Part shown: positions 15,865 through 20,525 of the stretch, one piece after another
Layout: each line of letters starts with the position of its first letter
Position numbering within the stretch: the stretch's first letter is position 1
Source: Planctomyces sp.
GTDB lineage: Bacteria; Planctomycetota; Planctomycetia; Planctomycetales; Planctomycetaceae
Assembly: GCA_002702685.1 (NCBI GenBank)
Contig: PABD01000240.1
Span: 1-32,905, forward strand
Direction: 5' to 3'
DNA length: 32,905 nt
The notes under the pieces: generated by a model
What the model was told of the DNA's origin: nothing
Seen by the model: only the letters and a program-made list of their open reading frames with translations
Database searches by the model: none
Translations under genes and position numbers: made by a program

Positions 15865-16304
15865 ATTATCCGCATATCCTGCGCACACAACAGATTGGAA
15901 TACCCATCCTGTTCAGAGGAAGAGGAGAACCGTTGATGCCTTCACGAAATCTGGCGGGCTGGCTCACTTTGCGGGTTGTATTTCCCGCGAGTTGTGAAAA
16001 GATACGGGAAAGGACAAAACCGGTCCGCGGGCTGTCAGCAAAGAGATACCTGCCGTAAGCATCCTGGCCTCACCGTCTGCATGCGGATGATGCTTACCGG
16101 AATGACCTGAAGTCACCCACCCCAGCACCCGCCCGCTGCCCGAACTTCCTGTGCGAACTGCCCTTGCGGTTCTCCAAACACATGGTCCTGAGCAACCGTT
16201 GTATCAAGCGCCTGGTACAATCGTCAGGTTGCCTGAGGGAGGTTAATGGCGCATCGCCGCGAAAACTAGGCGGCATCCCTCCAAGTTTCGCTGAGGAACT
16301 TTCA
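15865..16304 (+). other. Intergenic region upstream of the GYF_2 gene
   Basis: These 440 bases hold no convincing gene. GTAAGCATC (16055-16063) and GATGCTTAC (16089-16097) form a nine-base inverted repeat with a 25-base loop. The upstream part of the track frame 16164-17729 falls here and is judged non-coding because a better GTG start exists at 16305. Confidence 0.5.
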
Positions 16305-17729
16305 GTGTCCGACAACTGGTACTTCAAACTTTTCGGTGACCAATTTGGCCCCGTTACCTTCGAGGAACTCCAACACCTCGCGCAGATCGGAAAGCTGTCA
16401 AAGACAGACCCGGTACGTTCCGCCCGCGAAGAAAACTGGCAGACGGCGGGAAACGTGATCGATTTCACCCGCATGGAAGAAATCCGGCTCGAATCGGGCA
16501 TCATTCCCATGTCCACCATGACCGACTGGGACGACGGCGCCCGGCGGCCTAAGTCCGCTCCAGCTCCTTCCGCTTCTGGCAGCAGTTCCGAATTGCCGAG
16601 TATCGATGACATTGTCCTGAGCGATGAAAACGACACCGACCGGCAGTCAGCGACGCTCGACCAGTTCCTCAAGAAACATAGCTCGCATTCATTCAAGCTC
16701 GGCGACCAGAACGACGCCTCCGGCGAAGACAGCCATTTCGAACTGGAAGGGGACGCCGCCAAGCTGATGGTCGATCCCTGGTACGTGAAAGTGAATGGCG
16801 AGGAAGCCGGTCCCTTCAGTCCACTCGAACTGCAGATGAAAATCCGCCGGGGTGAAGTCGCGCGGAATGATTTCCTGCGAAAAGGGACGACCGGCGCCTG
16901 GCAGCGCGCCCAGCGAGTTGATCAATTCAAATTTCCGAACGCTCCGAAACCGACGCTCTCCTTCACTCCACCCCCCGAAACGCTGACGGACACGACCACC
17001 CCCTCACCCACGGACGAAGGAGAAAATGCGGAAGCCGAACAACAGCGTCTGATCGATGAAGCCAGAGCGAAAGCGGAGGACGCCAAAGCCAGACAGAGGG
17101 CCGAAGCCCTGGCCGCCTTCTTCGCGGAAAGTAACTTCGAAGACGACGGCCCCGATGTCCCCGACGAAGAACTCGACGAACAGCCTGAACCGACCAGCGA
17201 TCCGCTCAGAACGACACCCGCCTTTGGAAGCTCTGCCCTGGGCTCTACGCCCATTCCCCCCACGAAAGCGGCCGTCGCGGCGGCTTCCCGCAAGAAGAAC
17301 GTCGGCGCTGGCTTTCATTTTGAACTGGACCTCGGTCGCTTCAGCGGCACTTCCGGCATTATCGCCGCGAGCGTCGTGGGGTTCATGGCTTTAGGGGTGG
17401 TCCTTTACTTCTTCAATCCGTTCAAGACAGGTGGCCGGCAACTGAATATGGCGGAACAGCTCTGGACCGAAGTCCAGGCGAAAACATCCCAGTCCGACTT
17501 CAAGAGTGCCGCCACGTCGGTCTATCTGCCGCAGGCTCAGGAATTGTGGGAATCGATCAAACCCATTCCCAATGTCGACAACAAGGTCATCGCCCACCTG
17601 AAAGCCGCCGTCAAAGATGGGCTGATCCCTTATCTCGAGCGTTACCCTGAGAACAACGAAGAGGGGAAGGAAACGATCGAATACCACCTCGACGCCGCCC
17701 GCATCACCTACGAAAGCGGCAATTATTAA
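16305..17729 (+). CDS. Membrane protein with two GYF_2 (DUF4339) domains
   Basis: I start the gene at GTG 16305 because GAGGAA lies seven bases upstream and the first domain begins at once, giving 474 residues. There are two GYF_2 domains: about 5-50 (WYFKLFGDQFGPVTFEELQHL) and 159-207 (WYVKVNGEEAGPFSPLELQMKI). An acidic, Ser-rich linker joins them. A charged helical stretch (about 242-272, EAEQQRLIDEARAKAEDAKARQRAEALAAF) and an acidic Pro-rich linker follow. One transmembrane helix lies at about 350-371 (GIIAASVVGFMALGVVLYFF), with a helical domain of about 100 residues beyond it. GYF-type domains bind proline-rich peptides, so this is probably a membrane scaffold with a cytoplasmic N-terminus. 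Partners are unknown. Confidence 0.87.
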   Translation: MSDNWYFKLFGDQFGPVTFEELQHLAQIGKLSKTDPVRSAREENWQTAGNVIDFTRMEEIRLESGIIPMSTMTDWDDGARRPKSAPAPSASGSSSELPSIDDIVLSDENDTDRQSATLDQFLKKHSSHSFKLGDQNDASGEDSHFELEGDAAKLMVDPWYVKVNGEEAGPFSPLELQMKIRRGEVARNDFLRKGTTGAWQRAQRVDQFKFPNAPKPTLSFTPPPETLTDTTTPSPTDEGENAEAEQQRLIDEARAKAEDAKARQRAEALAAFFAESNFEDDGPDVPDEELDEQPEPTSDPLRTTPAFGSSALGSTPIPPTKAAVAAASRKKNVGAGFHFELDLGRFSGTSGIIAASVVGFMALGVVLYFFNPFKTGGRQLNMAEQLWTEVQAKTSQSDFKSAATSVYLPQAQELWESIKPIPNVDNKVIAHLKAAVKDGLIPYLERYPENNEEGKETIEYHLDAARITYESGNY

Positions 17730-17821: not shown

Positions 17822-17849
17822 TTGACAAATCGGGCCGAAACCGAATAAT
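17822..17849 (+). promoter_or_regulatory. Consensus-like sigma70 promoter with no ORF behind it
   Basis: A perfect TTGACA -35 box (17822-17827) is separated by 16 bases from AATAAT (17844-17849), a five-of-six match to TATAAT. No reading frame follows before the strong terminator about 75 bases on. Confidence 0.55.
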
Positions 17850-17855
17850 AAAGGT

Positions 17856-17962
17856 ACATCATTTATTATCTGTGTGTCGTACCTTCATACAGCGGGCAGC
17901 TATTATTTAAACCTTTGACACACGAAAGCTCTTACTCGGTCCTCCGGGTGGGAGCTTTTTTT
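17856..17962 (+). ncRNA. Candidate small structured RNA (promoter-terminator pair)
   Basis: Between the promoter and the terminator lies about 107 bases with no plausible gene but several complementary segments. AAGGTAC (17851-17857) pairs with GTACCTT (17879-17885). GTGTGTC in that loop (17872-17878) is exactly complementary to GACACAC (17917-17923), which abuts the terminator stem, so an H-type pseudoknot is possible. ACCTTT (17911-17916) can also compete for AAAGGT. The predicted start near 17856 would cut into the first stem, so either the start is slightly upstream or the repeat acts at the DNA level. It could instead be the 3' untranslated region of the GYF_2 gene. I recognise no known RNA family. 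Confidence 0.45.
17925..17962 (+). terminator. Strong rho-independent terminator
   Basis: AAAGCTCTTAC pairs fully with GTGGGAGCTTT (two G-U pairs), with a twelve-base loop, followed by more T to give a run of seven in all. It lies nearly 200 bases after the GYF_2 stop, so it more likely ends a separate short transcript, though it may serve both. Confidence 0.88.
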
Positions 17963-18160
17963 ATGGACTCGCCCCAGGGAAAGCCAAATAAATCCAGCCG
18001 TTTCCCCCGTCAGGGAGGCGAGGAAGACCGCTGTTTGTCCTGTCAAAGCGGCCGGGATTTGCTACGATGCACTCCGTTGGAAGTGTGCGACATCTGAACA
18101 TCGAGTCGCTGCTTCGACCTGAGAATACATCTTACGACCGACCGATTTCTCGAATGGATC

Positions 18161-18227: not shown

Positions 18228-18267
18228 CGACGTCGGCCACTCGATACAGACCCCTACATTCAAAACA

Positions 18268-18291
18268 GGCTGGCGGAAGCTTTCGCCAGCC
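18268..18291 (+). repeat. Near-perfect 24-bp palindrome
   Basis: GGCTGGCG and CGCCAGCC flank GAAGCTTT; the whole 24-base segment is self-complementary except for one symmetric pair. It lies 99 bases before the SEC-C gene and may be a leader hairpin, operator or dispersed repeat unit. Confidence 0.55.
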
Positions 18292-18389
18292 TCGCTACGT
18301 TCCGTGGAGCAGGAAACGCCACGCCGGATAAAGAGCCACCTCATTATCCTTCCCCCTCCGCCGACGTCACTGGAAAGAACAACTTCGCG

Positions 18390-20525
18390 ATGCCTTTAGA
18401 TCCCTATCAACTGTGTCCCTGTGGATCCGGGAAGAAACTGAAATTCTGTTGCGCCCCCCTCACCGAGGTGATGGAGAAAGTTCAGGCCGCGCAGGATAAA
18501 GGAAATACCCGGCTCGCGCAGCAACTGATCGAAAAACAGTACGATCCTGAGAAGCCTGTCGCCTGGGCGTGCGTCGCGCACGCGTCAATGCTGATCGAAC
18601 AGGGAGAGATCCTCCTCGCGCGACAGGTTCTGCAGACGTTGCTCAAACAGAATCCCGAACATCCCGCCGGCATCGGGCTCTACGCCATGACTGCCGCGCT
18701 GACCGGTAAATTCCAGGAATCGAAGTCGGTCATTTATAACGTCTTCCAGTCGGGAGCGGGACTGCTTCCCGACCTCGCAAGCGAAGTGGCTTCGGCCGTC
18801 TCGGCGCACTTCGCGCGGCAACAATGCTGGATGGCGGCCCGTGCCTACCTCGTTCTGTCGATGCGGCTCGCTCCTAAAGAAGCCAAACAGGATTGCTTCT
18901 ACGAGCTGATGTCCTTCGACGCCAACTACGCCATTCCCTATCCCTTCCGCAGTGGTCAACCTCTTACGGCGTTCACCGGTGGTGACGACGCCGAGAAAAA
19001 GGAAGACCGGAAAGCGCATAAGCTGGCAGAGCTCGGTTGCTACGCCCCCGCCGCCCGCATTTATGTCAAGCTGATTGAAAAACATCCCGAGAACGCCCTG
19101 CTCCACGTGAATGCCGGTTTGTGCCAAGCGTGGGATGGTGAAGAAGCGCAAGCGGCGCACTACCTCAACAAAGCAGCCGAACTGACCGAGGACGTCGGTC
19201 GGGCGGTCGAGCTCGAAACTTTGTCCCAGCTGATGGCGTGGAACTGCGTCGAAGATCGCGCTGTTCCCCAGACCGCTCATTACAACGTCGCCTCCATCTC
19301 GAAATTGATGTCGATCCTCTCCGATGCGGATCGCGCGCAGCGTGTGACCGAGCAACAGAGCAATTTCATCGGCGACTGGACCGAGGCGGGATACGAACTT
19401 CTCGATCGGAAGAAACTCGATAATGACGCGGAGGGCCTCAAGCCCGAGGACATCCCGCTCGTCATTGGTGAGATCCTGATCCTGAAAGAGACCCCCGAGC
19501 TGGCGGATGAAAAACGGGTCGTGATCACCGGTGAGTCCGAGGAACGACTGGAAGACGCGATCAGTCTCGTCAAAGAGATCCTGGGCGACAAACTGCAACT
19601 CGAAGATGAAAGTCGGGACGATTCCCTCCCCGAGTTTGCCAATCCGGGTGCCCCGCGGGAGCACGAGGCATTCTTCTGGCGTTGGAGCTTCCCCGCCAAA
19701 TTCCCGGCCAAACCGCGAATGGATCTCTTCCTGCAGAAATGGGAAAACCTCGCCTACAACGAGTGGCCCGGAAAACCTCAATCGATTCTCGATGGCAAGG
19801 CGCCCAAAGATCTCCCGGCCGACTCGGTGCGCAAATACGCCGCCGCGCACGTCTTCGACGCGCTGGCCGGGCAACGGCAGTTACCGCTCGACCTGCCGCG
19901 GTTGTATGAAGTCCTGGGACTCAAGCCGCTGCCGACTGTCAAACCGGACGACGAGCATCCGCTCTCCTCCCTGACCGCCATGCAGTTCAACCGGCTCGAC
20001 TACAGCGACCTCGGCGACGATGACATGCTCAACGTCATGAACCGGGCACTGCTGACTCACTACAGCCAGGTGCTCGAAAAAGTTCTCGAAGAGCTCCTCG
20101 AACATCGCCCCGGTTGCGAAGGAAAATTCGATCGCTTCCGCGCTTATCGCACCCTCTCCCAGATTGCGGTTTTCAAGAACGACGAAGCGGGCGCGCTCCG
20201 CTGGATCGGCAAAGCGCTTGACGAAGCGACGAAGCTCGATGACTCGTTCGAACCGGTCTTCGAATGGAAGGTCCGCAAGCTGACCGTCCTGCTCCGCGAT
20301 CCGCATCGCGCCGAAGTCTCCGAGCTCATCCATTCCATGCACGGGTATTATGGAGCAAAGATTCCCCAGTTCCGTCAGATGATCGAAAACCTTCAGTCAG
20401 ACCTGCATCTCGACGTCGGAATCCTCACCGCGGACGCGGCCCCGGCCACCAACGAAGGGCTCTGGTCTCCCGATCAACCGCCGGCGGGGGGCGAAAAGAA
20501 ATTGTGGCTGCCGGGACAAGACTGA
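18390..20525 (+). CDS. SEC-C motif protein with TPR-like repeats
   Basis: The 711-residue cytoplasmic product starts with a zinc-binding SEC-C motif: YQLCPCGSGKKLKFCC, with Cys9, Cys11, Cys20 and Cys21. In SecA this motif binds zinc and SecB or ribosomes. The rest is largely helical. Pairs of helices resembling TPR units occur at about 35-120 (ARQVLQTLLKQNPEHPAGIGLYAM) and 210-270 (AARIYVKLIEKHPENALLHVNAGL), and again near 560-640. The central region (VVITGESEERLEDAISLVKEIL) has an unassigned alpha/beta fold. It has no signal peptide. The start at 18390 places the SEC-C motif at the N-terminus, although the ribosome site is weak. The next gene is convergent, with 21 bases between the stops. 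A role in protein handling is likely but unproven. Confidence 0.88.
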   Translation: MPLDPYQLCPCGSGKKLKFCCAPLTEVMEKVQAAQDKGNTRLAQQLIEKQYDPEKPVAWACVAHASMLIEQGEILLARQVLQTLLKQNPEHPAGIGLYAMTAALTGKFQESKSVIYNVFQSGAGLLPDLASEVASAVSAHFARQQCWMAARAYLVLSMRLAPKEAKQDCFYELMSFDANYAIPYPFRSGQPLTAFTGGDDAEKKEDRKAHKLAELGCYAPAARIYVKLIEKHPENALLHVNAGLCQAWDGEEAQAAHYLNKAAELTEDVGRAVELETLSQLMAWNCVEDRAVPQTAHYNVASISKLMSILSDADRAQRVTEQQSNFIGDWTEAGYELLDRKKLDNDAEGLKPEDIPLVIGEILILKETPELADEKRVVITGESEERLEDAISLVKEILGDKLQLEDESRDDSLPEFANPGAPREHEAFFWRWSFPAKFPAKPRMDLFLQKWENLAYNEWPGKPQSILDGKAPKDLPADSVRKYAAAHVFDALAGQRQLPLDLPRLYEVLGLKPLPTVKPDDEHPLSSLTAMQFNRLDYSDLGDDDMLNVMNRALLTHYSQVLEKVLEELLEHRPGCEGKFDRFRAYRTLSQIAVFKNDEAGALRWIGKALDEATKLDDSFEPVFEWKVRKLTVLLRDPHRAEVSELIHSMHGYYGAKIPQFRQMIENLQSDLHLDVGILTADAAPATNEGLWSPDQPPAGGEKKLWLPGQD

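Follow-up and report, generated by a model that had tools for sequence, protein, structure and literature searches.

A predicted small-RNA gene of Planctomyces sp. represents a previously uncatalogued RNA family found in at least 12 planctomycete genera

The stretch of DNA analysed here (the window: 32,905 nucleotides of Planctomyces sp. contig PABD01000240.1, assembly GCA_002702685.1) carries a gene for a protein with two GYF_2 domains (16164-17729) and, starting at 18390, a SEC-C/TPR-like gene. Between them, and on the same plus strand, lie a promoter and an intrinsic terminator. The -35 element TTGACA (17822-17827) and the -10 element AATAAT (17844-17849), separated by a 16-base spacer, can be read directly from the sequence as reported in a first-pass annotation of this DNA, and match 11 of 12 consensus positions in a simple promoter scan; sites matching at least 9 of 12 number two in the 3-kb region, compared to 0.9 expected in shuffles. 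The terminator occupies 17925-17962, its stem lying at 17925-17939/17944-17958 and seven T residues at 17956-17962 closing it. These seven T had been correctly described, but the stem, previously counted at eleven pairs, comprises 12 (GCTCTTACTCGG/CCGGGTGGGAGC), four of them G-T, and is lengthened by AAA/TTT to 15-16 pairs. A simple terminator scan of the stretch did not pick up this element, probably because the extended stem takes up most of the T run. The G+C content of the region is 43-47%, compared to around 55-60% in the surroundings, and neither Pfam nor the list of open reading frames (ORFs) places a gene of a known protein family over it. Further downstream are a promoter-like site of the SEC-C gene, TGTCAA-16-TACGAT (TGCTACGAT, 18041-18068, plus strand), within which TGCTACGATGC is conserved in all three congeners, and a perfect 9-bp intergenic hairpin on the minus strand at 18267-18292 (AGGCTGGCG-AAAGCTTC-CGCCAGCCT).

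Taking the seventh base after the -10 element as the start and the T run as the end, the predicted RNA spans 17856-17962 (plus strand, about 107 nt). It folds at -36.4 kcal/mol with a z-score of -5.2, a stability equalled by none of 200 shuffled sequences. An A/U-rich 5' tail (17856-17871), which stays unpaired when the window RNA and those of the other two genus members are folded to minimum energy, is followed by a 7-bp hairpin, P1, formed by GUGUGUC (17872-17878) and GACACAC (17917-17923). The 38-nt loop of P1 holds the motif GCGGGCA (17892-17898; family consensus about GCSGGMA). The same fold is predicted for the window RNA and for the RNAs of both congeners described below.

A DNA search of 170 genomes of the window's planctomycete family yielded two strong matches of 78-80% identity, both in congeners (G096 and G097) and both upstream of the same SEC-C gene. 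In G096 the GYF_2 gene again adjoins the RNA gene on its upstream side, while the G097 contig ends just short of that position. The congener alignment retains the promoter, with AATAAT or GATAAT as the -10 hexamer, as well as GTGTGYC/GRCACAC, in which G096 has replaced a U-A pair by C-G through changes on both sides. A 19-base stretch of the loop (AGCGGGCAGCTATTATTTA) is invariant among the three sequences, and the terminator changes through paired substitutions.

This comparison bears on the proposal, made from the window alone, that three pairings form a pseudoknot or a mutually exclusive switch next to the terminator. All three pairs of complementary segments are indeed present: AAGGTAC/GTACCTT (17851-17857/17879-17885), GTGTGTC/GACACAC (17872-17878/17917-17923) and AAAGGT/ACCTTT (17850-17855/17911-17916). 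The attached caveat, that the predicted transcription start falls within the first stem, is also accurate since AAGGTAC spans it. However, conservation and covariation in relatives were found for GTGTGTC/GACACAC only. This pairing is the conserved core of the element, with 100% of its cells paired in the window and two congeners and pairing in 20 of 20 copies overall. The other two break in the congeners: across the three genus members, AAGGTAC/GTACCTT is able to pair in only 63% of cells and AAAGGT/ACCTTT in 59%. Not being conserved, these extra pairings (17850-17916, plus strand) were kept out of the model; the terminator covaries alone and no conserved pairing sequesters it, so that the switch is not borne out.

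More distant copies were sought with covariance models and sequence patterns. A model built from the three congener sequences (R1) found a fourth copy, in another genus, and a scan of GTDB with the pattern GTGTGYC..GCGGGCARC..GRCACAC returned ten stretches, four of them from Planctomycetota, each of these four containing the whole element. Two further models, R2 and R3, together with a pattern joining promoter and hairpin, brought the total to 20 copies from 12 genera, all of these genera belonging to the window's family. This total is a lower bound given limited detection; most of the 170 family genomes have no detectable copy. Read backwards as a control, the promoter-plus-hairpin pattern gave 11 matches in the 170 genomes, and its hits were therefore accepted only if both the loop motif and a neighbouring terminator accompanied them. 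No convincing copy outside the window's family emerged from class-wide searches, which covered 398 genomes and among these about 270 of other families: many of the pattern hits there, assessed from the matched stretch alone, were perfect repeats or other arrangements, and none was judged a copy. Other candidates were also rejected. Matches of an early model in genus g10 (L055-L057, L059) and at L060-L062 were terminator-only, with P1 broken or the loop absent; L125, immediately downstream of a 16S rRNA gene, L126, L127, L130 and L132 were attributed to chance; and the non-planctomycete GTDB hits L073-L075, L077, L078 and L080 were without the promoter-terminator arrangement. Four genomes (G130, G085, G069 and G079) contain multiple dispersed hairpin repeats of REP-type appearance, for example GTGTGCCACTGGC..GCCAGTGGCACAC, which mimic P1 in pattern searches.

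Each copy combines TTGAC(A/G), a -10-like hexamer, a hairpin with 7 bp or more, a GCSGGMA-like loop motif and, directly 3', a covarying terminator. All 20 have TTGAC(A/G) at the equivalent position. Since the covariance model excludes the promoter, its presence in copies found by model provides an independent check: all ten copies found by model only have TTGAC at the proper distance, compared to 0.01-0.04 expected per copy. Fitted spacers are 16-18 bases, and the -10 hexamer, CATAAT in genus g16, is weak in several distant copies. The 5' tail ranges from 3 to 16 nt. Every copy forms P1 in its minimum-energy fold, the G062 helix being shifted to a 9-bp register, and fold z-scores run from -1.3 to -6.4, G069 being weakest at about -1.3. 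The loop motif is identical, GCGGGCA, in eight copies (genera g1, which includes the window, g16, g23 and g30), and GCCGG(C/A)-like in most of the others, with divergent versions in G069 and G044.

Covariation was assessed in a 20-sequence alignment (A11), two MAFFT alignments (A5 and A7) having been left out for misplacing P1. Standard pairs occupy 96.5% of its pair cells, and cells changed on both sides number 109 as against 35 in shuffles, with none of 500 shuffles as high; these pair counts lean toward the structure, A11 having been fitted to the model. Sliding the pairing lowers the paired share to 36-56%, and RNAalifold recovers the same two helices. The helices differ in their pattern of change. 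In the terminator all 15 pairs show both-side changes over the 20 copies, 94.8% of cells being paired, whereas P1, although paired in 20 of 20 copies, has compensatory changes at three of seven pairs and is invariant at four, its strands reading GUGUGYC/GRCACAC in nearly all copies. P1 in these copies is thus under constraint for its sequence and not for its pairing alone, which partly reflects search patterns that named the P1 sequence; for four copies the initial hit came from a pattern demanding both P1 strands and TTGAC. Pair 6, where Y and R were left free in the search patterns, offers a less circular test. Here U-A occurs 8 times, U-G twice, C-G 9 times and C-A never (Fisher p = 7e-4, uncorrected for relatedness), and the switches inside genera g1 and g51 imply more than one event. 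The loop motif is conserved in sequence, the terminator in pairing only.

The neighbouring genes change from genus to genus. Those of g1 are the GYF_2 and SEC-C genes, the RNA gene lying 428 bases upstream of the latter on the same strand; in g16 they are SRAP and peptidase A24 genes, and in g14 and g23 GFO/IDH oxidoreductases. A nucleotidyl transferase flanks the copy in g38, a UPF0261 protein that in g35 and a pseudouridine synthase that in g26, while g48 has a polysaccharide deacetylase upstream. In g51 the downstream gene is rpsB (ribosomal protein S2), 170-260 bases away in three of three loci (L133, L158 and L160; genomes G134, G136 and G144) with differing upstream neighbours. Where flanking ORFs were picked as the longest on either side, any with no Pfam match could be spurious.

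The element at 17856-17962 is thus very probably a free-standing, conserved small-RNA gene, as judged from its sequence and its relatives. TTGAC, a -10-like hexamer and a terminator in all 20 copies are the features of an independent transcription unit, and the location is not tied to any one adjacent gene. The separate small RNA with its own promoter and terminator envisaged in the first-pass annotation has accordingly been strengthened by 20 copies in 12 genera and by covariation. The positions upstream of the same-strand SEC-C gene in g1 and of rpsB in g51, along with the alternative pairings that do exist in the window, would suit a cis-acting leader or attenuator whose terminator is switched by those pairings. 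Such a role is improbable, however: the downstream gene varies between most genera, and is in some on the opposite strand, which argues against a leader of any single gene; the competing pairings break in congeners; and the conserved promoter-like site of the SEC-C gene suggests that it and the RNA gene are separate transcription units. Promoter-like and terminator-like sites do arise by chance, and the end of the GYF_2 gene is 126 bases before the predicted RNA start on the same strand, but a fortuitous pair of signals, or a mere terminator of the GYF_2 gene, is a very remote prospect when the whole arrangement recurs with covariation beside unrelated genes in 12 genera. Equally slight are the chances of a short protein-coding gene. 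Although short ORFs overlap the region, just one of the listed ORFs starts within the RNA, at a TTG close to the RNA 3' end, there is no Pfam match, and P1 loop lengths cover all three residues modulo 3, contrary to a conserved reading frame.

No Rfam 15 family reached its gathering threshold in the window or at 14 copy-carrying loci, the best sub-threshold hits for the window being at chance level, and our searches within an open-access library turned up no description of this RNA. The predicted RNA therefore belongs to a planctomycete RNA family that has so far gone uncatalogued and extends over at least 12 genera. Among known RNAs it most resembles, in features recognisable from sequence, the intergenic trans-acting small RNAs of bacteria, which are about 100 nt long and have their own sigma-70-type promoter, a stem-loop with a conserved loop motif and an intrinsic terminator with a U tail. 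Promoter, size, intergenic site, loop motif and terminator are all alike; the unusual invariance of the P1 sequence is a difference. 6S RNA (RF00013) is likewise a free-standing structured RNA of wide occurrence but, at about 187 nt, is longer than the 107 nt seen here. Identity with 6S was rejected, as the 6S covariance model gave no match in the window and a separate 6S match lies elsewhere in 16 of the 20 carrier genomes, exceeding the Rfam cut-off in 12. In the window's own genus, none of the three genomes (G000, G096 and G097), of which one is 99% complete, gave a 6S match at E <= 0.01, compared to matches in 16 of the 17 other carriers; this genus probably has a diverged 6S. CsrB/RsmY-type RNAs titrate proteins by means of several GGA motifs in hairpin loops, and would be alike in manner if the partner here were a protein, yet the array of GGA loops is absent from the window RNA. 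The Rhodopirellula-1 motif, a candidate structured RNA of Planctomycetes and Proteobacteria, is similar in being reported from this phylum, a comparison made by description only (PMC2864571); given without an Rfam accession, it probably lay outside our Rfam scans.

As to function, the sigma-70-type promoter would start the RNA near 17856, producing a short unpaired 5' tail and then P1 with its 38-nt GCGGGCA loop, and the intrinsic terminator would end it at the T run. Unrelated neighbours in different genera make action in trans most likely, and the RNA is accordingly most likely a trans-acting regulator. P1 and its loop, conserved both in sequence and in pairing where the terminator is conserved in pairing only, form the likely recognition element. 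The GCSGGMA motif could serve as an antisense seed, and regulation through its pairing with target mRNAs is a tentative proposal with somewhat less than an even chance of being right. The extended form of antisense pairing is weakened: the three congeners share no 10-nt stretch complementary to the loop other than in the RNA gene, and a scan for 10-nt complements found fewer hits than its reversed control. Still less probable, though a serious competitor, is that the same free-standing RNA binds or titrates a protein, in the manner of CsrB or 6S, through the GUGUG/CACAC helix and the loop instead of base pairing; the rivalry concerns mechanism, leaving the gene itself unaffected. The missing long loop complement speaks for it, as does the invariance of four of seven P1 pairs across 12 genera in which every terminator pair varies, a constraint that exceeds the needs of pairing and fits protein binding, or target pairing after P1 opens. 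Against it, no protein partner is known, repeated protein-binding motifs such as multiple GGA loops are lacking, and the separate 6S genes of 16 of the 20 genomes mean that the 6S role is already filled there. A bolder and rather unlikely extension would place the RNA at the core of regulation in this planctomycete family, with its near-invariant helix GUGUG/CACAC and its GCSGGMA loop titrating a specific protein, a partner that no known bacterial RNA uses.

Small RNAs have barely been described in the planctomycete/PVC group, for which a review lists eight distinct annotated sRNAs, compared to 345 for Proteobacteria (PMC9029176, Table 1). The family reported here could be added to RNA annotation and, being supported by covariation in at least 12 genera and having its own predicted promoter and a short, recognisable core, would offer a starting point for the study of RNA regulation in planctomycetes.
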